Shown one piece after another: positions 1 to 18,300 of a stretch of DNA of 19,194 nt. The DNA lies in assembly GCA_029942215.1 (NCBI GenBank), contig JAOZTM010000002.1:1-19194 (forward strand). Direction: 5' to 3'. This stretch comes from Metamycoplasmataceae bacterium (lineage in GTDB: Bacteria > Bacillota_I > Bacilli_A > Mycoplasmatales > Metamycoplasmataceae). The notes beneath the pieces are model-generated. The model ran no database searches. It had not been told where the DNA came from and saw only the letters and a program-made list of their open reading frames with translations. Made by a program: the position numbers and the translations under genes. Position 1 is the first letter of the stretch. Each line of letters starts with the position of its first letter.

Positions 1-22
1 AATATTCTACTACTTTAACAAC

Positions 23-988: not shown

Positions 989-996
989 TTCTCTCC

Positions 997-1041
997 TTTA
1001 CAATTCTCTATAAAGTATTATACTTTATATAGAGGTATCAA
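997..1041. promoter_or_regulatory. Divergent pfkA/deoB promoter region with inverted repeat
   Basis: The 52 bases between the two start codons contain a perfect inverted repeat at 1009-1029 (arms TATAAAGTA and TACTTTATA, spacer TTA), extendable to CTCTAT and ATAGAG at 1006-1034 with a two-base slip. On the plus strand TTTACA (997-1002), 16 bases, TATACT (1019-1024) fits a promoter for deoB. On the minus strand TATAAT (1017-1022) fits a -10 for pfkA; the nearest -35-like TTGATA (1036-1041) is only 13 bases away, so its -35 is uncertain. The two -10 boxes overlap, so polymerase could occupy only one promoter at a time. The repeat may be an operator, or only the result of back-to-back -10 boxes. 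Confidence 0.55.
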
Positions 1042-2231: not shown

Positions 2232-2242
2232 TTCTTTTTTTT
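2217..2242. terminator. Shared terminator of deoB and the LtrA-family gene
   Basis: A 9-base-pair stem (AAAGAACTA / TAGTTCTTT, loop ATC) is followed on the plus strand by five more T (2238-2242). Its 3' arm contains the deoB stop codon (2229-2231). On the minus strand the same stem is followed by TTTTATTC, so it can also end the convergent membrane-protein transcript, whose stop is at 2241-2243. Confidence 0.8.
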
Positions 2243-3725
2243 AGTGATCAAGACTTTCAAGTTCAAGAGCCGCTTCACTTATTGTTCCTGTACGTTTAAT
2301 CATATTTTTAGATATTAAGTAAGAATATCCCGCAGTGAAGGTTAATATGCTTAATCCAACTGCCAACAATATATAAACTAGATCGAGTTCGAAGCCGAGT
2401 TGAACAAGCACAAGAAGAGCTATAGTAATCGGGAACATTAATAACGACAACAAGAAGAAGTGAACTTTTTCTTTTGTAATTATTGATGAGTAAAGTGTTT
2501 TTTTAGGAACAACAACCAATGAGAATATAGCAATTATTGCAAAGAATCCCAATACACCTGATACATATAATGTTGGATATGTCGAGTGAATCGCAATTTT
2601 TAAGTCGATAATTTCAAAAGGTTTTGCTGCAGCCAACAATGAAGGATTATTATACAAATCGTGCATTGCATTTGCGTATGAAGTTAACATACTTGTAGTG
2701 AATAGAATAAACGCGATTATCAATATATGCATAAATGAATATAAATATTTGTTTCGCTTAATTACCTTATAGTCGATTTTGTGTATAAATGTTTTATAGG
2801 TGTATCACATCAACATAATTATCAATATATTTAAAATCATTTCGCCAAACAATTCTCCGTAATGCCCTTTGTTCCCACTCAATGAAGTTAAGTTAAATAG
2901 GATCGCTTCTCCAAATGTGATGATTATAAGAAGGTGATGTCTCTCTTTATTTCTTTGAGATACTGTCATCTCTCTATTTTTTGTCTTGTTATTTTTTATA
3001 GAATTTAATGTGCCTACTACTTCTGAGATTATTATTCCTGTAACAATGATAATCAGGAATAAATCTTCTTTTCATAACTCTTTTGTTCCTGAAATCGTAG
3101 TGCCTAACATTCCCAACTCCATAAGAGTCACATAAAGAACGGTCCCAAACATTGTTATAAAGAAAGTTCAAAAAGACTTTTTCCGATTCTCTTTCGCATC
3201 TACAGATATTATGTCTTTACCAACTTTATAAGTTATTGAATAGAATAGGAAGAACGTTCCCTGTGTAATAATAAGAGATAGTAACAAACCATACTTAGCA
3301 AAGAATCCGTTATCTATCGTTAATGTTACGGCTTGTAATGAAATTGAGACCAAAAGAATGAAAGTGAATATGTGAGCTATTGCCGTTTCTCCACCATTGT
3401 GAGAAAATCATTTATTGAATTTTTTTCAAGTCAATCAAAGAATTGAGAAGTTGATAATTCAAAAAATAATTGAGACTGCAGTTTCTTTTTCATGTATTCT
3501 TGCACCTTGTAAAATCCCGATGTCTAAATGATGCAATCCTAATGCGCCAGGTATTCCCTTGGCAAGTAAAGCAAAAACGAAAACGATACCAAGATCGAAA
3601 AACAGTTCTAAGAAAGAAGTTTTATTCTCGTCATTTTTGATGGCTAAATTATTTCTTTTTATCATTAAAGAAAAAGTTTTAGTCAGCATATTCGAATTTT
3701 CTTTTTGTTTCTTTTGATTATCCAT
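2241..3725 (-). CDS. LtrA-family (low temperature requirement A) membrane protein
   Basis: Polytopic membrane protein of 494 residues read through several TGA (Trp) codons. LtrA was named from a cold-sensitive Listeria mutant and its biochemical role is not established. Two family signatures are visible: SFLELFFDLGIVFVFALL after an approximately 38-residue charged N-terminus, matching the LELFFDLVFVFA motif, and ERHHLLIITFGEAIL mid-protein, matching the ERxxLxxIIxLGE motif. Many hydrophobic segments (about ten or more by eye) alternate with short loops, and the C-terminal tail is acidic. ATG at 3725 has no Shine-Dalgarno site, and a TATAAT box lies 6 bases upstream of it. An alternative start is Met13 (3689), also without a clear ribosome-binding site. 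The gene stands alone between a tRNA terminator and the deoB terminator. Family assignment is firm; function is unknown. Confidence 0.85.
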
Positions 3726-3731
3726 ATGTGA

Positions 3732-3737
3732 ATTATA
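3732..3737 (-). promoter_or_regulatory. -10 box of the LtrA-family gene (leaderless)
   Basis: A perfect TATAAT ends 6 bases before the ATG at 3725, so transcription should begin at or within a base or two of the start codon. There is no Shine-Dalgarno site in between. The -35 would fall inside the terminator of the upstream tRNA transcript and no good -35 match is visible there. Confidence 0.55.
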
Positions 3738-3748
3738 AATTAAAACAT

Positions 3749-3768
3749 AAAAAAAGCACCTTACGGTG
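3749..3768 (-). terminator. Terminator after the tRNA-Lys gene
   Basis: On the minus strand CACC-GTAA-GGTG-C is followed by seven T. It lies 3 bases past the CCA end of tRNA-Lys and ends the infC-rpmI-rplT-tRNA transcript before the LtrA-family gene. The stem is short (4 GC-rich pairs) but the T tract is good. Confidence 0.7.
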
Positions 3769-3771
3769 ATT

Positions 3772-3847
3772 TGGTACGCTGTACAAGATTTGAACTTGTG
3801 ACCAATTGGTTAAAAGCCAACTGCTCTACCTACTGAGCTAACAGCGC
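3772..3847 (-). tRNA. tRNA-Lys (anticodon UUU)
   Basis: A 76-nucleotide cloverleaf. The acceptor stem GCGCTGT pairs with ACAGCGT, with one G-U at the end, followed by ACCA with the CCA encoded. The D arm begins AGCTCAGTAGG, the anticodon loop CTTTTAA sits on the TTGG/CCAA stem and gives UUU, and the T arm contains GTTCAAATC. It is 3 bases downstream of tRNA-Leu and surely cotranscribed with it. Confidence 0.96.
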
Positions 3848-3850
3848 TTA

Positions 3851-3938
3851 TGGTGCCCGAGACTGGACTTGAACCAGCACAGTATTGCTACCGGGGGATT
3901 TTAAGTCCCCTGCGTCTACCAATTTCGCCACTCGGGCA
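3851..3938 (-). tRNA. tRNA-Leu (anticodon UAA)
   Basis: An 88-nucleotide tRNA with the long variable arm typical of class II (Leu/Ser). The acceptor TGCCCGA pairs with TCGGGCA, followed by CCA encoded in the DNA. The anticodon stem GGGGA/TCCCC carries the loop CTTAAAA, giving UAA. GTTCAAGTC marks the T arm. It starts only 21 bases after the rplT stop with no convincing promoter between, so it is probably processed from the ribosomal-protein transcript. Confidence 0.96.
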
Positions 3939-3944
3939 TATAAG

Positions 3945-3961
3945 AATACTCAAAGAGTATT
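3945..3961 (-). terminator. Hairpin between rplT and tRNA-Leu (leaky terminator or processing site)
   Basis: A perfect 7-base-pair stem (AATACTC / GAGTATT, loop TTT) overlaps the rplT stop codon. It is followed by CTTATAT rather than a true T run, so it is a weak terminator at best. It may instead protect the rplT mRNA 3' end or mark the cleavage that releases the tRNA precursor. Confidence 0.5.
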
Positions 3962-4313
3962 ACTTTAATGCTTTTTTAGCTTCTTCAACAATTAAGTCGA
4001 AAGCTTTAGGTTCATGTATAGCCAATTCTGACAACATTTTCCTGTTAACTTCAATGTTAGCTTTTTTAAGACCGTTCATGAATACTGAATAATTCATTCC
4101 TCTTTGTCTTACAGCTGCATTGATTCTGGCAATTCATAATTTTCTAAAGTTTCTTTTAACTGTTTTTCTATCTCTAAAACCATAAGTTCAAGATTTAACA
4201 ACTTGTTGTTTGGCAACTTTAAATCCTATTGATTTGTGACCTCAATACCCCTTAGCGAGTTTGATTCACCTTTTTCTTCTTCTTCTTGATACTACTCCGC
4301 CTTTTACTCTCAT
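3960..4313 (-). CDS. rplT: 50S ribosomal protein L20
   Basis: L20 binds 23S rRNA early in 50S assembly and in many bacteria also represses its own operon by binding the leader RNA. The 117-residue protein (family about 118) begins [28 protein letters not shown], a very basic L20 N-terminus, and includes [33 protein letters not shown] and the C-terminal [12 protein letters not shown]. Trp residues are encoded by TGA. ATG at 4313 follows AGGAGG with ideal spacing. It is the last protein gene of infC-rpmI-rplT and lies just ahead of two tRNA genes. A standard-code scan misses this gene. Confidence 0.96.
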
Positions 4314-4323
4314 AGTTTACCTC

Positions 4324-4512
4324 CTAGTACAATCCCTTAAATCTCTTCATATCTGAAGGAGACATAAGTGTTGACTTTCTCGATTGACGTTTTTGTTTTG
4401 TTGTTTTGTTTTGTGCTAAGTGAGATCTGTATGCTTGACCTCTTTTAATTTTTCCAGTACCTGTTACTTTAATTCTTTTAGTAAGGGCACTTTTAGTTTT
4501 CATCTTTGGCAT
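4324..4512 (-). CDS. rpmI: 50S ribosomal protein L35
   Basis: Small basic protein of the large subunit, 62 residues (family about 64). It begins [31 protein letters not shown] and contains NKTTKQKR, both diagnostic of L35. Its Shine-Dalgarno site AAGGAGG and ATG lie inside the last codons of infC, with a 20-base overlap in another frame, so its translation is probably coupled to infC. rplT follows after 10 bases. Confidence 0.97.
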
Positions 4513-5077
4513 TAGGTGCCTCCTTAATTTTCTTCTTCTTATCTCTTTGGATATACATATCTAAGAATCTTCCACCATTCAATGTTGGTGGTTTCTGAAT
4601 CTCAGCTATATCTTCAAGAGTCTTATAGAAATCATCTAGTTTATTAAAACCTAATTCTTTCTTAGCCATCTCTCTACCTCTAAACTTTAGGGAAATTTTA
4701 ACTCTGTCGCCTCTCATAATAAATTCTCTGGCTTTTTTTGACTTTGTCATAAGATCGTGATCACCAATCATTGGTGTCATTCTTATTTCTCTATTGTTAG
4801 TTACAGATTGACTAGCTTTTGCATCTTTTCTTTTTTTCTTACGTTCATATTTGAACTTACCGTAATCTAAGATCTTAGCTACAGGTTGTTTAGGGTTATT
4901 TGAAATAACAACTAAATCTAATCCTTCATCCTCGGCTTTTGCAATAGCATCTGCTTTTGACATCAGTCCAAGTTTTTCTCCTTCTGAAGAAATTATGAAT
5001 AATTTCTGGAAGGGGATGAATTCATTAACCATGTGTTCTGCTTTAGGTCTTTTACGATTGTTTACTCGTCTAGCTAT
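4493..5077 (-). CDS. infC: Translation initiation factor IF-3, probable AUA start
   Basis: IF-3 binds the 30S subunit, prevents premature 50S joining and checks start-codon and initiator-tRNA pairing. The N-domain has [21 protein letters not shown] and [25 protein letters not shown]. The C-domain has [18 protein letters not shown]-like [23 protein letters not shown] and the closing GGRFLDMYI. An ATG at 5032 has no ribosome-binding site. Fifteen codons further upstream and in frame, ATA at 5075-5077 sits 6 bases after AAAGGAG and gives [15 protein letters not shown] before that Met. ATT immediately upstream is possible but too close to the Shine-Dalgarno site. A non-AUG start is a known autoregulatory feature of infC, since IF-3 discriminates against it. 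With the ATA start the protein is 194 residues. Confidence 0.93.
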
Positions 5078-5083
5078 AATAAG

Positions 5084-5090
5084 CTCCTTT
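5084..5090 (-). promoter_or_regulatory. infC Shine-Dalgarno site that decides a non-AUG start
   Basis: AAAGGAG is 6 bases upstream of the in-frame ATA (5075-5077) and 3 bases upstream of ATT (5078-5080). The first ATG lies more than 50 bases from it. Spacing therefore favours ATA. Confidence 0.8.
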
Positions 5091-5095
5091 ATAAT

Positions 5096-5205
5096 AAAAA
5101 GTGGTTTAAACCACTTCTCGACTACAATATAGAATATTGGTGTAGCGTGTACCTATGTAATTAACATCAGGTGAGAAGTGAATCTTCTTTCTGCAACAAT
5201 GTTGC
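5096..5205 (-). promoter_or_regulatory. infC-rpmI-rplT leader with attenuator (possible L20/IF-3 control)
   Basis: In transcript order the leader contains a GCAACA/TGTTGC hairpin (5193-5205), then segment A AGAAG (5184-5188), B CACTTCTC (5173-5180), a hairpin with CTAC/GTAG and AATAT/ATATT pairs, C GAGAAGTG (5112-5119) and D CCACTT followed by T (5096-5104). A pairs with B, B pairs with C over 8 perfect bases (antiterminator), and C pairs with D to form a terminator (AAGTGG-TTTAAA-CCACTT plus T run) ending just before the infC Shine-Dalgarno site. Mutually exclusive B:C and C:D pairing is the layout of an attenuator. In Bacillus the same operon is controlled by L20 acting on its leader. Whether this leader binds L20 is inference. 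Confidence 0.7.
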
Positions 5206-5211
5206 TCTTAA

Positions 5212-5220
5212 ATAATACCA
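5212..5220 (-). promoter_or_regulatory. Candidate promoter of the infC operon
   Basis: TATTAT (5212-5217) is preceded by TGG, an extended -10 arrangement. It would start the transcript near 5205, just at the first leader hairpin. No strong -35 is visible upstream. Confidence 0.45.
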
Positions 5221-5242
5221 AATAATGAGCTTAATAATCATT

Positions 5243-5273
5243 TTGTTTAAATAAACATGAAAAATAGTAAAAT
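5243..5273 (+). promoter_or_regulatory. Candidate ppa promoter (leaderless)
   Basis: TAAAAT (5268-5273) matches TATAAT at 5 of 6 bases and ends 6 bases before the ATG at 5280. TTGTTT (5243-5248), 19 bases upstream, is a weak -35. There is no Shine-Dalgarno site, so the mRNA probably begins at the start codon. Confidence 0.5.
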
Positions 5274-5279
5274 TAGATT

Positions 5280-5834
5280 ATGAAAAAAGAAATAATAGTA
5301 AATATCGAAATCCCAATGGGATCAAAAGTAAAATATGAATACGACAGAAAGACAAAAAAAATAGTAGTAGACAGAATCCTAAGAGAAGGGTTTGAGTACC
5401 CAGCTAACTACGGTTACGTAGAAGAAGCATTAGATTGAGACGGAGACGAATTAGATGTATTAGTATTCTCACCAGAAAGATTCCTTCCAGGTTCAGCTTT
5501 AAAAGCTAGAATCGTTGGAGCGATGAAAATGATGGATGATGGAGAAACAGATACTAAACTAATCGCTATCCACTCAGACGATTACAGATTAGATGAAATT
5601 CTAACTCTTGAAGATGTTCCAAAGAAATGATTAAAGCAAGTAGAAACATTCTTTACAACATACAAGAACTGAAAAAGATCTGGAATTACTTCAGTATCAG
5701 GATTCGAAAACCAACCATACGCAATCAAAGAATATGAAGAATGTGTTAAGTTAATGGACGAACATGGAAACTTAAGTAAAGAAGACTTCATTTATGAAAT
5801 GAAACAAAAACACCCAGAAAAATATACTGGTTAA
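5280..5834 (+). CDS. ppa: Inorganic pyrophosphatase (family I)
   Basis: Hydrolyses pyrophosphate to two phosphates, pulling nucleic-acid and aminoacyl-tRNA synthesis forward; soluble and Mg-dependent. The 184-residue protein (family about 175-185) begins [22 protein letters not shown]. It has [13 protein letters not shown] and the metal signature DGDELDVLV (54-62; the usual Pro after the second Asp is Glu here). Later come [22 protein letters not shown], and FFTTYKN followed by Trp-Lys. All three Trp codons are TGA, so a standard-code scan does not see the gene. ATG at 5280 is chosen because the family begins there and a -10 box lies 6 bases upstream; there is no Shine-Dalgarno site. It diverges from the infC operon and converges with topA. 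Confidence 0.95.
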
Positions 5835-5836
5835 AT

Positions 5837-5867
5837 AAAAAAATGGATTATTCCATTTTTATTTTTT
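5837..5867. terminator. Bidirectional terminator between ppa and topA
   Basis: AAAAATGGA and TCCATTTTT (5839-5847 and 5852-5860) form a 9-base-pair stem with a TTAT loop. On the plus strand ATTTTTT follows. On the minus strand the stem is followed by TT-ATTT. The topA stop (5859-5861) lies at its edge, so the two convergent genes share it. Confidence 0.85.
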
Positions 5868-7709
5868 CGTTCATTTCTTTTTACCAAAGAATGTTCTTTT
5901 TTGATTTGGATCTGATTCTGTGTGTACACATTCAGGGAAGTTAGAACATCCAAAGAATTTTGTATTATCTTTTTTGTTTCTTCTTACAATTAATGGTTCT
6001 CCACACTTGGGACAATCTTTACCTGCAGGAATTGAAAGCATCTTTGTAACTTCTAAAGTTTCAGTTGCTTCTTCAAGTTCCTTTTCGAATTCTGCTCAGA
6101 ACTCGTCAAGTAATTGTTTGTAGTCCATTTTGTTTTCAGCAATCTTATCAAGCTTAGTTCCTAACTCTGATGAATATTCTTCATTCATTATATTAGGGAA
6201 TGCAGCCGTTAGTTTATCAAAGATAATTCCAGCAAAGTCTGTAGCTACAAGCGCTTTACCTTCTTTAGTAACATAGTCTCTAGTTTTAAGAATGTTAATA
6301 GTTGTTGCGAATGTAGAAGGTCTACCAACACCAATTGAATCAAGCTTCTCGATTAGAGAACCCTCGTTATATCTTGAAGGAGGTTTTGTTTCATGTGCTT
6401 CAACTTTATATTCTTGAACATCAACTTTATCACCGATTGTATATTTAGGCAATTCCTTAGCAGCTTCATATCCAGATGCTTTATAGTATCCGTCAAAAAT
6501 TATTTTTGAAGATGTCATTTTAAAGTTATGACCATTTACTTCTAATTCATATCTAAGCGTTTCTCTTCTAGGTACTTTCATTAATGATTGAATTGTGTTT
6601 GTATAAATTAACTTATATACTCTGTACTCGTTCGAACTCAAGCTAAAGATTCCTTTTGCTTTTTCAGGCGTCATATTAAGATTAGTAGGTCTGATCGCTT
6701 CATGGGCATCTTGTGCTCCAGCGAATCCTGTAATTTTTTCAGCTAAGTATTCAGCACCGTATTTATCAGTGATGAATTGTTTAGCTTTAACAATGAAACT
6801 TGCAGACATTCTTGTTGAGTCTGTTCTTGGGTATGTAATAAGTCCACCATCTCCATAACCTTCATAAAGTCTTTGAGCAGCTCTTTGAATTGATTGAGAT
6901 GAGATTCCTAATTGTGAATCAGCCTTCTTATATAGAACAGCTTGTTTGAATGGAGTTCTTGTGTTGTCGTTTTTCTGAGATGTTTTAATATCAGTAACTA
7001 CCAAAGGTCCTTTGAAATCTTTTTCATACATCTTCACGTCTTCAGCTGAAATTCATTCTTTGTTATCTTCATTTTTTGGATTATAAAATTTAGCAACAAC
7101 ATCCTCGTTGATGATTGCGTTTCCTAAGAAATAGTGAACTGGAACGAAAGCTTTAATCTCTCTTTCCTTTAAAACTACCAATTTAAGGGCAATAGACTGC
7201 ACTCTTCCTGCAGAAGGTGAGTTAGGTGTGTTTGAAATCTTTCTTCTCATTAGAGCCGAAAGTTTATAACCAATGATTCTATCAAGAATTCTTCTGGCAA
7301 TTTGAGAGTTAACAAGTGCTTCGTCAAGCATTGATGGAGCTTCCATCGCAGCATTAACAGCTTCCTTTGTAATTTCGTTGTATCTTATTCTTTTGTATTT
7401 ATCTTTTAATTTAAGGATGTCTACAAGATTATCTCCGATAGCTTCCCCTTCACGATCTGGATCGGTTGCGATATAAACTATCTCAACTTCTTTAACTGCT
7501 TTTTTAAGTTTTGCAATTACTTCCTTCTTCTTTGGGTCGGGTTGATAGTTGGGTGTTCATGTCTCCATATCCACTCCAAATCTATGTACTCCAGACGACG
7601 GTAAATGCACTATATGACCTACCGATGCCATAACTTTATAATCTTCTCCTAGGTATTTTTCTATTGATTTTATTTTATTTGGTGACTCTACTATTACTAA
7701 TTTCTTCAT
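5859..7709 (-). CDS. topA: DNA topoisomerase I (type IA)
   Basis: Relaxes negative supercoils by single-strand cleavage through a 5'-phosphotyrosine link. The 616-residue protein is shorter than Bacillus TopA (about 690). The Toprim domain has Glu8 in VIVESP and DPDREGEA (Asp83, Asp85, Glu87). Next comes [12 protein letters not shown], and the active-site Tyr is in [12 protein letters not shown] (Tyr293). [13 protein letters not shown] follows, and the protein ends with one four-cysteine zinc element (CPKC ... GCSNFPEC) and a short basic tail. It is read through TGA codons as Trp. ATG at 7709 lacks a close Shine-Dalgarno site (AAGG is 12 bases away) but has a well-spaced promoter directly upstream. 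It follows dprA, as in Bacillus (smf-topA). Having a single zinc element is the main difference from longer homologues. Confidence 0.97.
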
Positions 7710-7715
7710 ACTAAT

Positions 7716-7744
7716 AGCATACCTTAAAAAAATAATTATTCCAA
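7716..7744 (-). promoter_or_regulatory. topA promoter (leaderless)
   Basis: TTGGAA (7739-7744), exactly 17 bases, then TATGCT (7716-7721), which ends 6 bases before the topA ATG. Each hexamer matches its consensus at 4 of 6. Transcription would start at the start codon, independently of dprA. Confidence 0.6.
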
Positions 7745-7777
7745 AAACTGCTTAAAAATGGTCCGTCAAAAAGCTTA

Positions 7778-8503
7778 TTAATTTGAAATATCCTGGATTT
7801 TTGTGATTAGGTTTGCGCCTTGTTTGATCAAGTCATCGTTTCCGTTGTCTTCCATGTCATCGCCAACGAAACAATAAACATCTTTACCTAGATTAAGGAA
7901 GTTAGTTATTAAAGAGTTGATGCCACCATTTTTCTTTGAGTTAAGCAAAATAAGATTTTCTGCAAATGCTGCGATGATTCTATTCCTATTTGCAAAATGG
8001 CTCTTCTCGACATTCTTTGCTGGGGGATACTCAGTGATCAATAAATCATCCTTATTGTACTCATTGTTCATATAAGGCTTATCAAGCCCGTTTGCGAGCA
8101 CATACATACTTGGTGCGTCATTGTGTTCTGCAATGTCTACATCAATACCTTTATAGGAAGCTGAGACAATACTGTAGTTAAGGTTGATCTCTGGTAAAAA
8201 ACTTTTAATCCTTTCTATTGAAATATCAGTTGAATCATTTCCAGTAAAAGAAATGAATTTCCTTTTGATTAATTCTGTGTTTCCTTTTAATCAAAGAACA
8301 AAGGGAGGCTTGTATGCTTCCTTTAGTTTGTTGGGATATTCAATATCCAGTATTGTAATTATTTTGTAATCACTTTTCTTTATGTCTGCTTCAAGCTTAT
8401 TCATATCTTTGACTGAAACCTTTTCTCTAGACTCCAGTGCTTTAAAAATCAAATCTCAATTGCCCTTATACTTGATGGCGAAGTAAATTAAAACTATATT
8501 CAT
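7778..8503 (-). CDS. dprA: DprA/Smf-family protein, degenerate
   Basis: DprA protects incoming single-stranded DNA and loads RecA during natural transformation. This 241-residue version is shorter than Bacillus DprA (about 300) and appears to hold only the Rossmann-like core, without clear SAM or winged-helix domains. Family marks in order are YPNKLKEAYKPPFVLWLKGN (YPxxL...PPxvLxxkGn), SASYKGIDVDIAEHN in place of SGxAxGID..AH, ANGLDKPYMNNE, LLITEYPP (about 154-161) and HFANRNRIIAAF (RNRII at 173-177). The IaiVGSR segment is replaced by KFISFTGND. ATG at 8503 follows AGGAG. TGA encodes Trp. It begins with the same upstream box as the comEA-like gene. No terminator separates it from topA. The family is clear, but DNA binding may be altered. 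Confidence 0.88.
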
Positions 8504-8514
8504 TTTTCTCTCCT

Positions 8515-8538
8515 CACCTCTATATGTATAAAAAAGTG
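8515..8538 (-). promoter_or_regulatory. Shared competence-gene box, copy 1 (dprA)
   Basis: On the minus strand this is CAC, six T, then ATACATATAGAGGTG, directly followed by AGGAG and the dprA start. It is identical to the copy at 11026-11050 except for one T. It lies right after the holA terminator and is the only promoter candidate for dprA. TACATATA placed just before the expected transcription start could act as a -10 element for a special sigma factor. That role is inference. Confidence 0.65.
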
Positions 8539-8546
8539 GGGGCAAT

Positions 8547-8567
8547 AAAAAAATAATTAATTATTTT
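8547..8567 (-). terminator. Terminator after holA
   Basis: An 18-base perfect palindrome (AAAATAATT / AATTATTTT, 8550-8567) contains the holA stop codon and runs into further T on the minus strand. The stem is all A-T pairs, so it may be inefficient. Confidence 0.6.
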
Positions 8568-9478
8568 ATTAAATTAAGAATGAACAAATCCAATGCTTTG
8601 TCTTTATCGACTAGTCCTGATTTAATGTTCTTATCTAAGTTAGCTAAGTCTACGACTGTCTTCTTGATTCTATCAACTGAATCGTAATTCAAGATATCGT
8701 TAGCTTTTTTGATTCTAAATATGTGAATCTTTGTTTCGTCAGCAATTCTTTGATTTGGAATATTTTGCTCTTTATATGCAGAAACAAGTATTGCAAGATT
8801 TAGCACAGAAGCTATTTGAGAAATAATTATTGTTGCTTCCGTTTTTGCTTTTAACAATTTATTGTATGCCAAAACTATTCCATGTTTATCAAAAGATGCA
8901 ATTGCATTTGAAAGTTCGAAACCTGAATCTAATTGATATTCGCCAATTGAAATCTCAACCATCTCTTTTGTGATATCAAATGATTCCATTAGTAACTTAT
9001 CAATTTCCATAATTATGATTCTTAAATTATTTGGAAGTTTACTTGAAAGGTGAATAACAGCTTCTGGCTTAATTGTTCCACCCTTAGCTTTAACAATATC
9101 TTTGATAGTGTCAACTAAATCTTTATCTGATACTTTCTTCTTCTCGATAGTTGTTCATGATTCAAAGAAGAATTTAATAAGTGGATTCTTTTTATCAAGC
9201 TTAGAACCAAATGTTACTGCAACAAGCTTTATTGATTCTCCAACAGATTGAACAGCATCAATTAATTGATCTGCATCTTTATTATTTCCAAATGCTTTTA
9301 TATCTTTTAAGATTATGTACTTACCTTCATCAAACATTGAAATAGTAGAAAGCTCAGAAACAATATCAGCAAGATTACTGTCGTGGTCAAAAACTATAGG
9401 ATCAAATGTTTGTTCCTTAGATATCTTGCTTAATTCTTTTTCAATTAAGTATTGTTCCTCGCCATAAATAAATATCAT
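8561..9478 (-). CDS. holA: DNA polymerase III delta subunit (clamp-loader)
   Basis: Delta opens the beta sliding clamp in the clamp-loader complex. The 305-residue protein (Bacillus about 345) begins MIFIYGEEQYLIEKEL, which matches the family start xxYGxexxLixxxl. It continues with SELSTISMFDEGKYIILKDIKAF and VAVTFGSKLDKKNPLIKFF (the family's usual lDKR-type region). It ends with the helical collar, ELSNAIASFDKH ... AKTEATIIISQIASVLN. No Walker motifs are present, as expected for delta. One TGA (9155-9157) encodes Trp. The 5' end overlaps comEC by 34 bases. Position right after comEC is the same as in the Bacillus comE locus. A TATAAT within comEC could give it an independent promoter. Confidence 0.92.
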
Positions 9479-10767
9479 ATCTTTCCTATTATAAAAGATG
9501 CGAGGGATAATATGTAGAAAAATTGAATAGTAAAAAGATTTGGTTTTGGGATTTCAATCAAAACATTTATATCTTTCATTATTCCAAGGAACCAAAGAAA
9601 GGCTCAGTAAACATGATCCATCATTCCTTTTATAGGGAAGAACAATAATGTTACAGAGTAAAGAACAACTAATATGGGAGTAAAAACAATTCCCATCAGG
9701 AATCCCTCGGGTGCGAAATAACCATTTATATAAATTGAAATTGGAAGTGTTGCGAGATATACACCAATAGAAATAACTAAAAACTTCCTGAAGTCATTCT
9801 TGAACTTCAAATCATTTATTATCATAATCACTGCAGTAGCAAGAAATGTAAAGATAAATGAAAGCGAAGTAACCGAATACGGTTTATAAATCATCATCCC
9901 TGACATTGTTAGTGAAAGCAAAATTATATTGTGGACTTTTGATTTTAAAAATTTCTTATTTATAAAAACCAAGACATGAAGGAAAAAGGCCCGACTTGCA
10001 GATAGTGGGAAGTTCATAAAAAATAGATAGATGAAAATTACCATCAGTGGTAGCCACCCCTCAAAATATTTATCGAGTCTTAAAAGTTTTAATGCTTTAT
10101 TGATCCCTATATAGAAAAGAGAGATATGGAATCCTGATATGACAAACAAGTGTACTATGGAAAGTTCCACAGCTACGTTGTATGCTTCTTTAGTTTCTGG
10201 AGTTTTTATACCAAGAAGAACTAGAGGAGCAATAGAGCGATAACTTTCTGGCCCATTTGTTATGAAGGTAAAGGCCTGCGCTCTCAAATCGTTTGATGAT
10301 GAAACGATATGCACTGTAGGATTGGATATTATATTTTCGACATTCATTGTTTTCAAATAAGCTACGTAATCAAAAGTAGCCGTTGCAAAGTTCTTTGGTG
10401 TTTCTACAATTCCAGAAACTTCTATCTCATCAAAAAGATTGAATTTATCTTTTGATCTAACTAGAACATTGTTTCCATCAATTTTTATTATCGGTCCTGA
10501 AGACGTTATTTTTTTGATTTCGTAAATGCCAGAAATTGATTTCGATAAATGATTTTGATTTTGAAGAAACATTGAAAGAGCAACGATTGAATAAAGTAGC
10601 AATGCTCCAAGTAATATGTACGGTCTCCTAAGAGTGAATAGAAAAAGCAAGATAGATGCCGAAAGAAACATGTAATCAATTTTGTTTCTAAAAGTTAAAA
10701 ACAAAGTCATTGATAATAGAGCGCCGAACAGATAATCAACATTACTTGATTTGAATAGTCATGTCAC
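9445..10767 (-). CDS. comEC: ComEC/Rec2-family DNA-uptake channel, without nuclease domain
   Basis: ComEC forms the membrane channel for single-stranded DNA in transformation. The 440-residue protein has two or more N-terminal membrane segments, a soluble beta-rich region with a DUF4131/OB-like pattern (about 75-155), then the competence domain with the signature IVHLFVISGFHISLFY (about 205-219), MNFPLSASRAFFLHVL and several further membrane segments. It stops after the membrane domain and lacks the C-terminal metallo-beta-lactamase-like domain of Bacillus ComEC (776 residues). GTG at 10767 is chosen because GAGGAG precedes it by about 10 bases; the first in-frame ATG (10710) has no Shine-Dalgarno site and would remove part of the N-terminus. 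It overlaps the comEA-like gene by 26 bases and holA by 34. Of five Trp codons two are TGG, unlike the TGA-only neighbours. Confidence 0.88.
9488..9493 (-). promoter_or_regulatory. Candidate internal -10 box for holA
   Basis: A perfect TATAAT inside the 3' end of comEC lies 9 bases before the holA ATG, followed by AGGAAAG. No -35 consensus is evident at 16-18 bases. It could keep the essential holA expressed when the competence genes are off, but a chance match in AT-rich DNA is possible. Confidence 0.4.
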
Positions 10768-11026
10768 GAGTTATTATCTCCTCAAGTTCATAATCATCTT
10801 TTAACATCTCTCAGGGCTCACCGAGATTCAATTTATAAATTGCTTCATAAAATGTTGTTCCATACTCTACTGTTATAGGTTCTTTATATAATGTGTCTGA
10901 ACTTCTCACTACATAGTAGTCTCTTTCCTTTTCTGTGGACTTGGAATGTCTAGTCAATAAGAAAACAGTTATAGCTGCTGCTACAATTATTATAAAAATT
11001 AAACTTATAAAAATCTTTTTCTTCAC
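10742..11026 (-). CDS. Small membrane-anchored protein, ComEA-like by position
   Basis: A 94-residue protein with a basic start (MKKK), one membrane segment (about residues 5-24) and an extracellular part. The part after DYYVVRSSDTLYKE reads PITVEYGTTFYEAIYKLNL ... ELEEIITRDMTIQI, a pattern that could be a degenerate SLBB/beta-grasp unit like the one in ComEA. The DNA-binding helix-hairpin-helix of ComEA is not visible. The call rests mainly on its place directly upstream of, and overlapping, comEC, as comEA is in Bacillus. The start is GTG at 11026 (no ATG available); GAGG sits only one base before it, too close to act as a Shine-Dalgarno site. One TGA (10811-10813) is read as Trp. It could also be an unrelated membrane-anchored protein. 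Confidence 0.6.
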
Positions 11027-11050
11027 ACCTCTATATGTATAAAAAAAGTG
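11026..11050 (-). promoter_or_regulatory. Shared competence-gene box, copy 2 (comEA-like/comEC)
   Basis: On the minus strand this is CAC, seven T, then ATACATATAGAGGTG; the last G is the first base of the GTG start codon. It matches the dprA copy at 8515-8538 apart from one extra T. It lies just past the rbfA terminator. If TACATATA is the -10 element, the mRNA would be leaderless or nearly so. Confidence 0.65.
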
Positions 11051-11057
11051 CCCGAAT

Positions 11058-11083
11058 AAAAAAACAAATAATTATTTGTTTTT
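11058..11083 (-). terminator. Terminator of the rimP-nusA-ylxR-infB-rbfA operon
   Basis: A perfect 24-base palindrome (11060-11083; core CAAATAATTATTTG) contains the rbfA stop (11072-11074) and ends on the minus strand in a run of seven T. The stem is mostly A-T with one G-C pair. Confidence 0.7.
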
Positions 11084-11419
11084 ATTTTCCATTTTAATTT
11101 CTTGAAGAAGCCTGTCAATTCTTGCTCCTTCTTCTTGTGAAGCATCGTGTTTGAAGTGAATTTCAGGAACCTTTCTTAACCTAGAAGAAGACGCTAATCT
11201 TTTTCTAACGAATCCGGAAGTCTTCAAAAGATATTCCATTGATCTATCTTTATTTCTTAAGAAAGTAACATACACGTTCAAGTGTGAACCATCATTTGAA
11301 AGTTTAACACTTGTAACTGTTGTAGAAGAAATGTTTGCATTAACTATTTCCTCACCAATGATTTCTGAAACTGATTTTAAGAATGCAGTCTCTTTTCTTT
11401 TGTTAGCAACTGAAGCCAT
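11072..11419 (-). CDS. rbfA: Ribosome-binding factor A
   Basis: RbfA is a single-KH-domain protein that binds immature 30S subunits and helps 16S rRNA maturation. The 115-residue length is normal (about 115-120). It begins [25 protein letters not shown], has VTSVKLSNDGSHLNVYVTFL (beta core of the KH domain), then GFVRKRLASSSRLRKVPEIHFKHDAS and the closing GARIDRLLQEI, all typical. Its ATG overlaps the infB stop in TAATG, so translation is probably coupled. It is the last gene of the operon. Confidence 0.96.
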   Translation of the reverse strand: MASVANKRKETAFLKSVSEIIGEEIVNANISSTTVTSVKLSNDGSHLNVYVTFLRNKDRSMEYLLKTSGFVRKRLASSSRLRKVPEIHFKHDASQEEGARIDRLLQEIKMENKNK

Positions 11420-13215
11420 TAAACTTTCACCTCAACATCAATGAAGAATTCAAGGATGTCCCCCTCTTTGATATCGTTGTACCCTTTAATATGACAACCA
11501 AACTCTTTTCCATTCTCAACTTTTTTAGCTTGATCAGGTCCTCTTTGAAGTGAATCAAGTACACCTTCATGAATAACTTCTCCGCCTCTAATTAATCTTA
11601 CGAATGATTTAGAAAGAACATGTCCTTTAACAACTTCAGAACCGGCAACATTACCAATCTTTGAAGCAGGGATAATCATTTTAATAACAGCTTCACCAAT
11701 AACTTGTTCTTCATATTTAGGTGCTCTCATGCCTGAAATAATTTTCTCTACATCTTCGACCATCTTGTAAACGATTGAATATGTTTCTATTTGAACATTT
11801 TCTTGTTTCGCAAAAGAAGCGTTATCTTTGTTTGGACGCATATTGAATCCATAAATTAATGCTCCTGATGCTTGTGCAAGTAGAATATCTGATTTAGTAA
11901 TAATACCAACAGTTGCACTAACAACATTAATAACAACTTCGTCATTTGAGATATTTCCAAGAGCATACTTAACAGCTTCTGCAGTTCCTTGTGTATCTGA
12001 CTTAACAATTATATTAAGGATTTTCATTCCGTCTTGAATTTGTAATGCTTTTCTTGCTTTTAAAACTATTTGCTTATCTGCAAATGCTTTATCTTTAGCT
12101 AATTCTTTGGCAAATTTTTCATTCTTGAAACCATAGAACTTATCTCCTGCAATTGGAGAATAATTTAAACCTGTAACAACAACAGGAGTTCCTGGTCCAG
12201 CACTTTCAATAATGTTTCCATTTGTATCTTCAAGTGATCTAATACGACCATGCTTTGATCCAGCAACTAAAAAGTCCTTCTTAAGAAGAGTTCCGTTTGA
12301 AACGATTAAAGTTGCAACAACACCTTTACCAGTTGTTACTGATGATTCAATAACAGTTCCGATAGAAAGTCTGTTTGGATTACCTTTTAATTCAAGTAGT
12401 TCTGACTGTAATAAAATGGCAGTAAATAATTCGTCAATTCCTTCACCTTTAAGTCCAGAACCATAAACGAATTGTGTATCCCCTCCTCAATCGTCAGCAA
12501 GAACATCAAGAGAAGATAAATCTCCCTTAACCTTTTCAGCATCTGCTCCAGGTTTATCCATTTTGTTAACAAAAACAATGATTGGAACTCCAGCAGCTTT
12601 TGAATGAACAATAGCTTCTTTAGTTTGAGGCATAACACTATCTCCAGCATCAACAACTAATATAACAATGTCAGTTACATTTGCTCCTCTAGCTCTCATT
12701 GCTGTAAATGCTTCGTGGCCAGGTGTATCAAGGAAAGTAATTTTCTTATCTTTGTGTTCAACTTGGTATGCACCAGTATGTTGAGTAATCCCACCAGCTT
12801 CAGTTGAAGCAATATCTGATTTTCTGATTTTGTCAATTAAAGTTGTTTTACCGTGATCAACATGACCCATAATTGTAACGATAGGGTTTCTTTCAACAAG
12901 ATCCTTTTCGTCATCTTTAATTTCAATAACATCCATGAAGTTAGAAGCATCGACTTGATCTTCTTTTTGGAAGTCAAATTCATACTCCATACATAGTTCA
13001 GCGATTTCTTCTTCTCCAAGTGTGTGATTGATATTGAACATTTTTCCCTGTTCGAAAAACTTAGTGATTATTTCTGTAGCACTTTTGTTTATCTTGCCAG
13101 AAAATTCTCCAATTGTCATTGGACCAGAAAATATAAAGATTCCATCTTTAAGTTCTGTATCAACTGATTTCAATTGTTTTTTAATATCGTCTTGATTTAA
13201 TTTTCTATTATCCAT
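11419..13215 (-). CDS. infB: Translation initiation factor IF-2
   Basis: IF-2 is the GTPase that brings initiator tRNA to the 30S subunit and promotes 50S joining. The 598-residue protein has a short N-domain (about 110 residues before the GTPase), far shorter than in E. coli. GTPase motifs are GHVDHGKT (117-124), [11 protein letters not shown] (140-150), DTPGH (163-167) and NKMD (217-220), followed by the G5 loop around [10 protein letters not shown]. Domains II-IV follow, with [19 protein letters not shown] and the C-terminal GFGC-like [21 protein letters not shown]. One TGA (12487-12489) is Trp. ATG at 13215 follows AAAGGAG. It sits 2 bases after the ylxR stop and overlaps rbfA by one base. 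Confidence 0.98.
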
Positions 13216-13217
13216 TT

Positions 13218-13466
13218 TTACTCCTTTATTTTTTTAATTAGTTCTTGATAAACTTCGCTCGGAACTTGCCCTTTGAAAGCTTTATGTAATACTTTACCAT
13301 TAATTATTCTATCTGCTAACTTAGGGTTTTTAGTGACGTATGCGCCTCTTCCACCTTTATTAGAATCAATCTCATATTTGCCTTCTTTTGTTTTTGATAT
13401 TCTGATCATCTCACTAGTTTTTTTTGTTTCACCAGTAACAACACATTTTCTTTCAATGTTAGTCAT
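13218..13466 (-). CDS. ylxR: YlxR/RnpM RNA-binding protein
   Basis: A small basic protein of 82 residues from the DUF448 family, usually encoded between nusA and infB. Bacillus YlxR has been reported to bind and modulate RNase P. Visible family features are [20 protein letters not shown] (family RxCxxCxxxxxxxxLxR; the second Cys is Thr here) and [15 protein letters not shown], matching the GRGaYvc motif, again with Cys missing. The start overlaps the end of nusA by 8 bases and lacks its own Shine-Dalgarno site, so it depends on coupling to nusA. It is followed 2 bases later by infB. Confidence 0.92.
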
Positions 13467-14883
13467 TTAAAAAGTCTGGATCAATATCAGCCAGTTCTTC
13501 ATTGAATTCAAAGTCTTCTTGAATTTCATCTAATTCGTCTTTTGAAAAATCAATATCAGCAAACATGTCTTCTGTAGCTTGGATAGCTGCGCCTGCTTCA
13601 TCATCGAAGGCTTCCATATCTTCTGTAAAGTTTTGGATGTCTCCATCAAGTGAATCAAGTTTAACTGAACTACCAAATGTTCTTTGAGGTCTTTGTCCGC
13701 CGCCTCTAGAGTTCAATCTTTCTCCAGATTCGATGATAGCAACTTCAGCTTCAGTAAGGTTTCCGTTTCATTCAAATTCAATCCCTTTTTCTTTAGCTTC
13801 ATCAATTGACACAATGTCTAGTCTTGTAGATGTTAGTTCAACTGCAAGTCTAGCATTAGAACCTCTTTTACCAATTGCAAGTGTTTGATGTTTATTAGGG
13901 GTAATAACAACCTTGTGACCTTCGATAACTTTACCGTCAGCATCTTTTTTATCAACTATTCCAATAACTTTAGCAGGTGCCATAGCACTTGCGATAAATG
14001 AATTTTTATCTTCTATTCATGGAATGATATCAAGTTTTTCTCCATCAAGCTTAGCAATGATAGCTTTAATTCTAGTTCCATTAGAACCTATTAATGCACC
14101 AACTGCATCAACACCTTCTACATTTGTTTTAACTGAAACCTTAGCTCTAATTCCTGGCATTCTTGAGATAGTAACTATTTCAACAATTCCTTCAGCAATC
14201 TCAGGAACTTCAACTTCAAGTACTCTCTTGATCATTTCTTTTGAACCATTTGATACTATTATTTGCGCATCTTTAGATTCTTCTAAAACGTCTTCAACAT
14301 AAACCTTAACTCTTTCACCGATGTTAAGTTTGATATTTGGGTTTTTAAACTTTGAAGGCATGAATGCAATCGTTTGATCTTCAAGAACTAAAATAGCATG
14401 TGTAGTTGATGATGATGTAACAACAGCAGTAACCATTTCTCCTTTAAGACCTTTGTGTTTTGAATATACAGCAGCTTTTTTCTTTTCACGAACACTTTGA
14501 ACAATCATTTGTTTGATTCTTCCTGCGATATTTTTTGAGTAAGATAAAAAGTCAACTTCGTCAGAAATTACGTCTCCGTCTTTTGCGGTCTTCTTAATTT
14601 TCTTAGCATCTTTCAAACTTATTTCAACAGCTTTGTATTCATCGGCAACTTCCTCATCAACAACATACTTAGTGTTATTGATCAATTTCATTTCTTTTTT
14701 ATCAAAATCAAGAGTGAAATCTAAATCTGCATCTGGGTCAAATTTAGAATGAAATGATTTCTTAACTGAATCTGAAATGATTTCTACTATCTCCTCAACG
14801 CTCAATAAATTTTGTGTTGCTAGTTGTTCTATTGCTTCAAAAAATTGTTCCATGTTTACTTCGTTTTTTACTTCTTTTGACAT
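13459..14883 (-). CDS. nusA: Transcription elongation/termination factor NusA
   Basis: NusA binds RNA polymerase and nascent RNA, enhancing pausing and hairpin termination. The 474-residue protein has the N-terminal polymerase-binding domain (about 1-130), an S1 domain (GEMVTAVVTSSS ... RVKVYVEDVLEESKDAQIIVSN), KH1 with VGALIGSNGTRIKAI and KH2 with LAIGKRGSNARLAVELT. It ends with a tail of about 110 residues rich in Asp and Glu and without clear repeats. Two TGA codons are Trp. ATG at 14883 follows AGGAAAGG and is 1 base past the rimP stop. The acidic C-terminal tail is unlike the Bacillus protein (about 370 residues, ending soon after KH2) and may be autoinhibitory, by analogy with E. coli; that is inference. 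Confidence 0.97.
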
Positions 14884-14884
14884 A

Positions 14885-15325
14885 TTATGCCTTTCCTATT
14901 TTTGCAAATATTTTTATTTCGTTTATGTTGTTCTTCTTTACTTCTTGCTTTCTAAATTGCCCTTTGGCATTTCACTTAATAACCAATGCATCATTAGTGT
15001 CTTCAATTAAGACTCCAATGAATTCCTGATTATCATTGATTGATTCATTCAGTGTAATTTTTACATCCATACCGATATTTACTTCAAGATTATTTAAATC
15101 AATTTCATGATCTGTTCCTCTTGAATAAACATCTAGAATATATTCATTATCTGTTTGGTCAATTTCATCAATGAAGGTTGATACTTCTTTTGAAATTTTA
15201 ATCACTTCATCAAAATCCGAAACTTTCAATTCTACATTTAAGAATGTATTTCCGTCTCTTTCTTCAAAGAAAACTTTACTTACTGTTTTCTCGAATTTTG
15301 AGATGATTTGTTTTTCAATTTCCAT
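14885..15325 (-). CDS. rimP: Ribosome maturation factor RimP
   Basis: RimP supports 30S assembly at the S12/S19 stage. The 146-residue protein (family about 150) has ISKEVSTFIDEIDQTDNEYILDVYSRGTDHEI, which corresponds to the family's YxLEVSSPGxxRPL stretch with the usual SSPG reduced to SRGT. Next comes DVKITLNE and EFIGVLIEDTNDALVIK, ending in a basic tail (FRKQEVKKNN). One TGA (14972-14974) is Trp, and the reading continues to TAA at 14885. AAAGGA lies 5 bases before the ATG. It is the first gene of the operon with nusA, ylxR, infB and rbfA. The sequence is divergent, but position and core pattern make the call safe. Confidence 0.9.
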
Positions 15326-15338
15326 ATATCCTTTCCAT

Positions 15339-15369
15339 AAAAAAATAAGCTACCAATAGGTAACTTATT
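15339..15369 (-). terminator. polC terminator, possibly an attenuator of the nusA operon
   Basis: An 11-base-pair stem (AATAAGTTACC / GGTAGCTTATT with one T-G pair, loop TATT) is followed by seven T in total on the minus strand. It ends only 13 bases before the rimP start, leaving almost no room for a separate rimP promoter. Confidence 0.85.
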
Positions 15370-15391
15370 GCTCTATTCTATTGACTCTAAT

Positions 15392-15397
15392 ATTATA
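15392..15397 (-). promoter_or_regulatory. Candidate -10 box upstream of the rimP operon
   Basis: TATAAT overlaps the polC stop codon. A transcript from it would start near 15385 and pass through the hairpin at 15339-15369 before reaching rimP. No clear -35 is seen. Confidence 0.35.
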
Positions 15398-18300
15398 TAG
15401 AAAAATCTAGTGCTATTTGATTAGATTCAGAGAAACTATCAAGTATTCCTAATTCATCAAATTTAGCGATTGAAGTTTTGTTTAATGAAGTTCTTTTCTT
15501 AATATCTTCTTTTGAAACAAACTCTTTTTCGTTACGTGCTTCAACTATTGAGAATGCAACAGCATCACCTAATCCTTCAATTACTGAGAATGGAGGAATC
15601 AATGTATTATCTTTAATAACTCATTCATTTGCTAATGAATAGCTCATATCAATATTTCCAATTTTAATTCCACGAGCTAATGCTTCGTTTGCAATTTCTA
15701 GAACTGGAATTAAACCAACTTCTCTATTCGTTAGTTTATCTTCTCCACGTGCATACTTACGAGATTTTCAATCTTTAACTGTAGCTTCAATCATCGCCTT
15801 ACCTTTAATGATAGTTTTTATATCAAAGTTGTCAGCTCTAGTTGTAAAGTAAGTTGCGTAGTATTCAATTGGGAAATAAAGTTTATATCATGCTACTCTT
15901 CAAGCCATTGTTACATATGCTACGGCGTGAGCCTTAGGGAACATATATTTGATTTTAAGAAGTGAATCAATATATCAATCTTCAACTTCATGTTCTTTAA
16001 GTAATACTTTTCATTCTTCAGTAAGTCCCTTACCTTTACGAACACTTTCCATTATTTGGAATGATTTCAATGGATCTACACCTTTGGCAAGTAGATCAAT
16101 CATAATATTATCTCTACATGAGATAACTTCTGAAAGTGTTTTACCTTCGTTTCTAACTAGTATCTCCGCATTAGTTGCTCAAACATCTGTACCATGTGAT
16201 AAACCTGAAACAGAAACAAGGTCACCAAATGAATTTACATTTGCATTCTTTAACATTCCTCTAACAAACTCAGTACCAAATTCTGGAATACCCATTGCTC
16301 CAGTGCTTTCACCCATTATGTCTTCTGGCTTAATACCAAGAGCTTCTGGTGAAGAGAACAATGAAATAATTTTCTCATCCATCATCGGAACATCAGTTGC
16401 AGTTTTTCCAGTCAGCTTTTCTAAAAGTCTTAAAGCGGTTGGATCATCATGCCCAAGCAAGTCAAGTTTAAGAACGTTGTCATGAATAGAGTGGAAGTCA
16501 AAGTGTGTAGTTCTTCAATCAGCATTAACATCATTAGCTGGATAGTTTATTGGTGTAAAGTCTTCAACATCAAATTCAGATGGAATAACGATAATCCCGC
16601 CAGGGTGTTGTCCTGATGTTCTCTTTGTTCCCCTAACTCCTTTAGCTAAGTATTCTGTGAATGGTCTAGAAAGAGTGATTTCTTCTTCTTCAGATCATCC
16701 CTTTACATATCCATAAGCGGTCTTTTCTGCAACTGTAGAAATAGTCCCTGCTCTGAAGGCGTGCTTCTCACCAAATAGAACTTTAACTTCGTTATGGATG
16801 ATTGGTTGGTAATCACCAGAGAAGTTTAAATCAATATCCGGAACCTTATCAGCATCAAAACCAAGGAAAGTTTCAAATGGGATATTTTGACCATCTCTAT
16901 GTAAATCAATTTCACAATTAGGACATTTCTTTGCTGGAAGATCGAAACCTGAATTTAATTCTGAATCTAAAAAGATTTCAAAGTGCTTACATTTTTCACA
17001 AATGTAATGTGGTTCCAAAGGATTAACTTCGGTTATCTTTGATAATGTAGCAACAAGTGAAGAACCAACAGAACCCCTTGATCCAACTAAATATCCATCA
17101 TCTAATGATTTCTTAACTAATAGGTGCGAGATTCAATAGATAACAGCAAACCCATATTTAATAATAGGTTCAAGCTCTCTCTTGATTCTTTTTTCAATGT
17201 GTTCAGGTAATACATCTCCGTAAATTTCTTTTGCTGTTTTATAAACAAGGTCAGTAAGTTCTTTATCTGAATCACCGAACTTAGGTGTGTACAATTTATC
17301 TTTAATTACCTTTGAGTCTTCAATCATGTCAGCAATTTTATTTGTGTTTTCAATAACTACTTCTTCAACTAGTTTAACATCACCTAAAAATGCGAAAGCT
17401 TGAATTGCTTCTTCTGTAGTTAATAAGTGTTGATCTGGGTAAACTGCATTTTCTTCATTAAATCTATAAAGGTAATGTCTTGCACCGCCAAGTCCTTTGG
17501 CTGCAATATAAACCTTGTGGTAAGCCTTATCACTTGGATTAAGATATCTTACATCACCAGTTGCAACAACGAGTATGTTTTGTTTCTTAGATTCTTCAAC
17601 AACAAATCTAATCATCTCTTCGATGTCTTCTTGTTTAGTTCCTCTATTAATCATGTGTAAGTAATTTTGAATTGGTTGAATTTCAATATAGTCATATAGA
17701 GAGATCTCTTTTATCACTTGTTCTTTTGAACCATAGAACATTCTATCTACCAATCTTGATTTCAATCCACCAGACCCTAATAAAACATTCTTCCTATTAG
17801 CAAGTTCTTCCATTATTAATTTTGTTCCTCTTGCATAGTTGGTTGTTAATGCCGCAGAAGTTAATTTAAAGAGCTCTTTAAGACCTTCTTGGTTTTTTGC
17901 TAGTAAAGTTACTTGATTAGAAAATGCCTTAGCTTTAAGGTCCTCTGATTTGAATTCAAATAGTTGTGTTTGCGTTTTAATTCCCATTGCTTCTAAAAGA
18001 GATAATGCTTTAACTCAAATTCTCGCAAGCACTTCAGCATCATAGTCAGCACGGTGAGCGGTTGTTGAATCATAACCAACACTTAATCTTGTTGCAACAT
18101 TCCCTAACCTAAATCTTTTAGCTTCTGGATGAATCATTCTTGCAACAACCATTGAATCAATAACTGGATCGCTAAGTGTTTCAAATCCAAACTTTGATAG
18201 TTTTTCATTTACAAAAGAAATATCAAAATTAGCATTGTGAGCCACAAGCGTATGTCCCCTTAAATAATCAGCCATTAATTTGGCTCCTTCTTTTTGATCA

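Follow-up and report, generated by a model that had tools for sequence, protein, structure and literature searches.

A shared promoter-like box before competence and recombination genes of a Metamycoplasmataceae bacterium, and a candidate SigH-type sigma factor

A near-identical sequence block precedes two units with genes for DNA uptake, dprA and a comEA-like/comEC/holA unit, in a stretch of 19,194 nucleotides (the window) from a Metamycoplasmataceae bacterium (assembly GCA_029942215.1, contig JAOZTM010000002.1, positions 1 to 19,194). Seven sites with this box are present in the assembly, a sigma-like gene lies at the ancestral sigH locus between rlmB and secE, and forms of the box recur in some relatives. 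We consider it likely, at roughly three chances in four, that the box is the promoter of a small competence-recombination regulon and is read by a SigH/ComX-type orphan sigma factor whose gene lies at that locus. The sites would then act as promoters, this factor would be what reads them, and DNA uptake would be the outcome. A preliminary description of the window had proposed that the box is recognised, in a mollicute, by a competence regulator or an alternative sigma factor; this proposal is supported by the genes behind the boxes and by the sigma-like gene.

The box in the window

Direct reading of the sequence confirmed the minus-strand element that had been reported before dprA and the comEA-like unit, CAC followed by six or seven T and ATACATATAGAGGTG, together with its identity over 24 bases apart from one inserted T. 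The identical stretch is part of a longer shared block of about 45 bp, more than had been described, and the two boxes are two of the seven copies in the genome (Table 1). The full box is found nowhere else in the window, as the preliminary description held: of six matches to the 14-mer TACATATAGAGGTG, two are exact and four have 3 mismatches, a total of six was reached in 0 of 200 shuffles, and deoB carries a partial form only (1024-1037). A promoter scan of the region found no consensus sigma-70 promoter on the boxes themselves; across the region, 17 sigma-70-like sites were found against 14.6 expected from shuffles.

Open reading frames (ORFs) were read with TGA as tryptophan. The match of the comEA-like protein covers only profile positions 2-95 of 162, and the C-terminal half of ComEA was not seen. 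Two relatives (G004, G016) have a full-length ComEA of 166 aa, where the protein of the present genome corresponds to the first half only.

Table 1. Boxes, neighbouring elements and the genes behind them. Positions are those of the window; sites elsewhere are given by contig.
Feature	Location	Strand	Remarks
Box 1 (dprA site)	8515..8538	-	CAC-T6-ATACATATAGAGGTG, 24 bases; T6 tract, TACATATA (-10-like), GAGGTG
Box 1 to dprA start codon			gap of 11 bases, from reading of the sequence
-35-like element of dprA block	8542..8552	-	TTTTTATTGC
dprA	7778..8503	-	DNA_processg_A, PF02481, E 3e-29
Box 2 (comEA-like/comEC/holA site)	11026..11050	-	CAC-T7-ATACATATAGAGGTG, 25 bases; T7 tract, TACATATA
Box 2 to comEA-like GTG start codon			5 nt after TACATATA; final box base is first base of start codon
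-35-like element of comEA-like block	11055..11065	-	TTTTTTTATT
AT-rich palindrome, terminator-like	11062..11081	-	AAACAAATAATTATTTGTTT; at rbfA end, upstream of box 2
comEA-like gene, 94 aa	10742..11026	-	NCBIfam MAG0490 ComEA, E 5e-5, below cut-off
comEC	9445..10767	-	Competence, PF03772, E 9e-22
holA (DNA polymerase III delta)	8561..9478	-	PF06144/PF21694; last gene of comEA-comEC unit
Site before ruvA-ruvB	contig C5		RuvA family-confirmed; RuvB named from translation
Site before 82-aa peptide with double-glycine-like leader, then radC	contig C14		RadC, E 6e-26
Site before 116-aa MG284/MPN403-family gene and second ORF	contig C34
Sites at two loci of small ORFs with coiled-coil-like repeats	contigs C5, C11

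Seven sites in the assembly

The assembly comprises 448,001 bases on 59 contigs and is 75% complete. Three pattern searches of it, with a reading of the matches, gave seven box sites that were counted as real. The 19-mer TTTTWTACATATAGAGGTG, at up to 3 mismatches, matched six times against none in the reversed control; one of these matches was rejected as chance because it lies inside the coding sequence of lepA (LepA confirmed). With CTTTTTTATACATATA at up to 3 mismatches, 28 matches were obtained and 28 in the control. The five matches with at most 1 mismatch all fall on box sites. Among the four with 2 mismatches, two have the identical variant CTTTTTTAGATATATA, one before ruvA and the other before the MG284-family gene. 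The longer pattern TTTTATTGCNCCNNCTTTTTTANANATATA matched six times, against none in the control, and misses the comEA copy because of its extra T.

The block reads TTTTTATT, 7-10 bases, six or seven T, A, then TACATATA or AGATATATA, and is directly followed by a ribosome site or start codon at all seven sites. Once one T of the comEA copy is left out for register, the seven copies agree in 22 of 50 columns; TTTTTATT is invariant, and the two conserved blocks stand at promoter-like spacing. When each copy in turn was left out of a 16-base position weight matrix (PWM), the copies scored 16.6-22.3 bits, the best of 69 other upstream regions of the same genome, all without the box, reaching 8.2.

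The pattern searches did not find the box before many unrelated housekeeping genes, a distribution that the preliminary description had named as speaking against its proposal. Behind the seven sites are competence and recombination (com/rec) genes or small, functionally uncharacterised genes, and the only housekeeping gene there is holA, at the end of the comEA-comEC unit. No recA was found among the sites; the assembly is 75% complete, and no family search for recA was made in it.

A sigma-like gene at the sigH locus

Pfam gave a single sigma match in the assembly, at a contig end behind a DnaG-like gene, which was taken as RpoD. This result was dropped as proof that no second sigma factor exists after a synteny search. 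Over 58 relatives, Pfam gave a second sigma match in 19 at E <=10, six of them over the cut-off; that of G003 is false. In 13 of the 19 genomes the match follows rlmB directly, and in three more (G002, G021, G051) it is within about 2.5 kb. Since these matches cluster behind rlmB, the same place was read in the present genome and 19 others. The order on contig C27 is cysS, rlmB, a 168-aa sigma-like ORF, secE and nusG (cysS, secE and nusG by Pfam), and the congener G001 also has a sigma-like ORF at this locus, the two proteins being 41% identical. An orphan sigma factor gene was among the things that the preliminary description had suggested looking for, and this ORF is a candidate for it.

A profile built on 13 members of other genera matched the protein of the present genome at E 1.1e-20, the next of its 153 ORFs (a set that includes a longer form of the sigma-like ORF) being at 0.06. 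Held-out candidates were recovered by the profile in 13 of 14 cases, with G015 missed. The best PDB match of the family profile is SigH (3mzy, 1.6e-12), followed by other sigma factors. Nineteen of the 27 candidates were aligned (alignment A1), eight more divergent ones being left out; the general sigma-70 model TIGR02937 matches 18 of the 19 at E <=0.1, and sigma-70 regions 2 and 4 are seen in a small protein at the level of the family. As to class, the models matched are SigH in four of the 19 members (best 1.3e-11), FliA/WhiG in 11 (best 9e-9) and SigBFG in nine (best 3.5e-6).

Of the 29 family genomes examined, 25 have a sigma member downstream of rlmB at a distance of at most 3 kb. Ten of the 29 were in the training set of the profile and eight had been picked for a Pfam second sigma match there; among the 21 not so picked, the count is 17.

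The box in relatives

In what follows, the present genome is G000. Searched for in 57 other genomes with 2 mismatches allowed, the pattern TTTTTTATACATATAGAG turned up 23 times, fewer than the 35 matches of the reversed control. These are chance matches, and therefore a gene-by-gene comparison was needed. The congener G001 keeps the order comEA-like gene, comEC, holA, dprA. The box before its comEA-like and MG284-like genes keeps TACATATA, with an upstream part that differs from that of G000, and its ruvA has a less exact form, CTATACATATTTA. The conservation that the preliminary description had looked for in a relative with the same gene order is thus seen at the comEA-like and MG284-like genes and, less exactly, at ruvA, with no more than a degenerate form at dprA. 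Further afield, an MG284-like gene, comEA and a coiled-coil gene have CAGAATACATATATA in common in G016, and ruvA and recA (PF00154) have TTTTTACATTTATACA in common in G005. Blocks of their own are shared by dprA and a repeat-protein gene in G019, and by dprA and ruvA in G027. In G005 (L106), recA, whose promoter box is common with ruvA, was also seen to follow immediately after the orphan sigma gene. The com/rec genes of the congener and of some other genera thus carry forms of the box, in a patchy pattern.

Two comparisons were made across relatives; since the values of related species are not independent, their p-values are too small and it is the direction that counts. Within single relatives, 58 pairs of upstream regions of unrelated com/rec genes had a mean score of 13.5, against 9.6 for 577 pairs of a com/rec region with a control gene of that genome (p 6e-10, G000 excluded). 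With a PWM made from the boxes of G000 alone, 86 com/rec upstream regions of relatives scored above 226 controls (p 5e-8); comEA and recA genes first counted as controls had here been moved to the targets by protein identity, and an earlier version with 72 targets and 238 controls was also significant (p 4e-6). Loci L148, L151, L152 and L153 (no re-alignment) and the dprA of G020 (no start codon in reach) were left out, and two distant metagenome-assembled genomes from a DprA scan of genome contigs were not used.

Spacing at comEA and the proposed mechanism

In five of the 16 comEA-position genes read, from three genera, exactly 5 nt lie between box core and start codon. A membrane-segment rule yielded a comEA-position gene at 10 of 19 further comEC loci, and the other nine were dropped. 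The core before the start is TACATATA or GACATATA (RACATATA) in G000, G001, G004 and G016, and TACATATG in G007. NCBIfam identifies the proteins of G004 and G016 as full ComEA (E 1e-47 and 2e-49), and those of G000 and G001 are short and below the cut-off (5e-5 and 5e-4). That the 5-nt spacing recurs in three genera favours a -10 element.

RNA polymerase carrying the orphan SigH/ComX-type factor of the cysS-rlmB-sigma-secE-nusG locus would read TTTTTATT(GC) as the -35 element and TACATATA, or its variant AGATATATA, as the -10 element. Transcription would start about 6 nt past the -10 element, so that the mRNAs other than that of comEA would begin just before the Shine-Dalgarno sequence. At comEA the usual distance from -10 element to first base, taken with the 5-nt spacing, would place the beginning of the mRNA at the start codon, and the comEA mRNA is accordingly predicted to be leaderless. 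Once active, the factor would jointly turn on the comEA-like gene and comEC for the DNA channel, dprA for the loader of incoming strands and ruvAB for branch migration. The same switch would cover radC with the double-glycine-like peptide, the MG284/MPN403-family protein with its MHO_1580-family partner, and the two coiled-coil-like small proteins.

Weighing the interpretation

Several points weigh against a SigH-type factor acting through the box. Its transcription of the com genes is inferred from the distribution of the box. Taken singly, the sigma-like protein has no Pfam sigma match and NCBIfam matches below the cut-offs only (1.6e-5 and 0.0083), and a profile of its four closest members gave only weak PDB sigma matches (0.02). 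No factor was found near rlmB in four of the 29 genomes (G010, G013, G015, G020), and its distance from rlmB is 1.4 kb in G002 and 2.5 kb in G021. The 5-nt spacing is absent in 11 of the 16 comEA-position genes, and the G007 protein is comEA by position only. Before the congener's dprA there is a degenerate box at most. The best com/rec pair beats all controls in only seven of 26 relatives, no sharing of a box was seen in G002, G006, G021, G026, G029 and G033, among others, and a PWM score of at least 4 is reached by only 19 of 86 targets, against 12 of 226 controls. The dependence between related species, which makes the p-values too small, counts on the same side, as does a sigma-70-like site upstream of box 2, beyond the palindrome and near the rbfA end (TTGACA-16-TAAAAT, 11 of 12 matches, minus strand 11118-11091).

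This last site would suit an activator or repressor that binds the box beside or on an RpoD promoter, as would the fact that RpoD is the sole Pfam sigma match in the assembly and the agreement of the -10 region of the boxes with TATAAT in 4-5 of 6 letters. The MG284-like protein might be such a regulator: its gene is itself a box gene, and a model of the ArpU transcription regulators matches weakly at its C-terminus (E 0.0012; five of 17 members at E <=0.1). We nevertheless hold an activator or repressor to be improbable, given that the conserved parts sit at -35 and -10 positions, that the genome has a suitable sigma-like gene, and that the constant 5-nt spacing at five comEA-position genes fits a -10 element better. 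TATAAT itself, moreover, occurs in none of the seven boxes (55 bases scanned) and in 18 of the 69 other upstream regions (last 60 bases). It is highly improbable that the block is a dispersed repeat or translation element with no common regulation. The radC-peptide and ruvAB regions are indeed alike further upstream than the box, but flanks otherwise differ, every copy is closely followed by a ribosome site or start codon, and the congener keeps the core at the same genes in different surroundings. In the window, moreover, no tandem repeats were found, and an Rfam scan gave two tRNAs only, with no family at either box.

The purpose of the regulon is a separate matter. A sigma-dependent regulon for recombination, serving antigenic variation or repair as with sigma-20 of Mycoplasma genitalium, in place of DNA uptake would be compatible with the boxes being promoters, and we regard it as somewhat unlikely. 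The regulon includes ruvAB and an MG284-family gene, sigma-20 controls recA and ruvAB according to a review (PMC9262362), and the short comEA-like protein shows no DNA-binding half. Full boxes at the genes of the uptake channel (comEA-like and comEC) and of the strand loader (dprA), in the present genome, speak against recombination as the only function. The SigH/ComX-type factor with a competence-recombination regulon remains the preferred interpretation.

Partner genes

The gene on contig C34 belongs to the MG284/MPN403 family (NF045770, E 1e-18, over the cut-off), the model of which is matched by all 17 homologues in alignment A2; no significant match for the family was found among solved structures. 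The second ORF there, truncated by the contig end, resembles the MHO_1580 family (1.8e-8, below the cut-off), and its counterparts in G001 and G007 are full members (1e-44 and 4e-15). An MG284/MPN403-family gene followed by an MHO_1580-family gene was observed in all three genomes (G000: L284 on C34, 661-1011 and 1-668; also L283 and L281).

The 82-aa peptide is encoded between box and radC (L017, contig C14, 6225-6470), and its double-glycine-like leader ends in LSQDEKEQTYGG, before WAW. Its sole NCBIfam match, to the MPN313 family, is non-significant (E 0.049, far below the cut-off), and no relatives of it were found in the loci compared. MPN313 of Mycoplasma pneumoniae is presumably the counterpart of MG220. 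The latter is RrlA, an accessory protein of sigma-20, in the review (PMC9262362). The peptide could be a secreted signal, a bacteriocin-like peptide or an RrlA-like accessory protein.

No families were found for the coiled-coil-like small ORFs on contigs C5 and C11. Coiled-coil-like repeat proteins stand behind box-type promoters in three genera (G000, G016 and G019: L015 9329-9706, L016 5626-5934, L202 2051-2608, L220 537-1145), and those of G016 and G019 match a DUF16 model below the cut-off only. Elsewhere in the window, the two tRNA genes found by Rfam are adjacent (3775-3937, minus strand), and an ORF on the opposite strand that overlaps one of them (3850-4092) is probably spurious.

Comparison with known systems

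The candidate resembles SigH of Lactobacillus sakei and Staphylococcus aureus and ComX (sigma-X) of streptococci in being a small orphan sigma factor. In L. sakei, SigH is encoded at the cysS-nusG locus, shows low identity between species and activates late com genes and dprA (PMC3364868). The likeness extends here to the locus, which in Firmicutes other than streptococci runs cysS-rlmB-sigH-secE-nusG. The com box is different. The preliminary description gave the streptococcal consensus as TACGAATA and reported a match at 6 of 8 letters; TACATATA does agree in 6 of 8, which amounts to a resemblance only, the boxes reading TACATATA or AGATATATA. Unlike the SigH/ComX regulons, the seven units have no pilus genes (comG and comF were not searched for by family), include ruvAB, an MG284-family gene and small repeat proteins, and have a comEA mRNA predicted to be leaderless.

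Among mycoplasmas, alternative sigma factors are represented by sigma-20 of M. genitalium and MPN626 of M. pneumoniae. MG284 belongs to the sigma-20 regulon. We know of no control of comEC or dprA by sigma-20 or MPN626. Sigma-20 (MG428) controls recA, ruvA, ruvB and genes of unknown function according to the review (PMC9262362), so ruvAB is common to its regulon and to the present set, in which a box precedes ruvA. The MPN626 gene lies behind the mpn625 terminator (PMC12494982), and differs from the present candidate in not being at the rlmB-secE slot. Fisunov et al. (2016) called the putative alternative sigma factors of Mollicutes, partial sigma-70 homologues, 'primarily species-specific' (PMC5138195); by contrast, a single slot near rlmB, found by synteny, is filled here in 25 of the 29 genomes examined.

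Implications

To our knowledge, this wall-less group is thought to have no competence programme, and the present findings suggest a dedicated one in a wall-less bacterium. Among the literature matches listed, no paper dealt with a mycoplasma competence regulon or SigH, many subscription papers being out of reach. The sequences compared point to a SigH-type competence regulon with its own box, a comEA mRNA predicted to be leaderless and an MG284-family gene, in a wall-less lineage. It is attractive to consider, as a tentative idea at slightly less than even odds, that in mycoplasmas of this family a SigH at the ancestral locus directly commands a minimal uptake machine without pilus (ComEA/ComEC/DprA), recombination helpers and a secreted-type peptide, and that the sigma-20 regulon of M. 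genitalium is what remains, in derived form, of this arrangement. A sigma-like gene at the sigH locus, together with the box before comEC, dprA, ruvAB and radC, makes regulated DNA uptake in mycoplasmas directly testable, because it names a candidate regulator and a regulon and leaves few unknown partners to consider, and may link the recombination regulon of M. genitalium to Firmicute competence.

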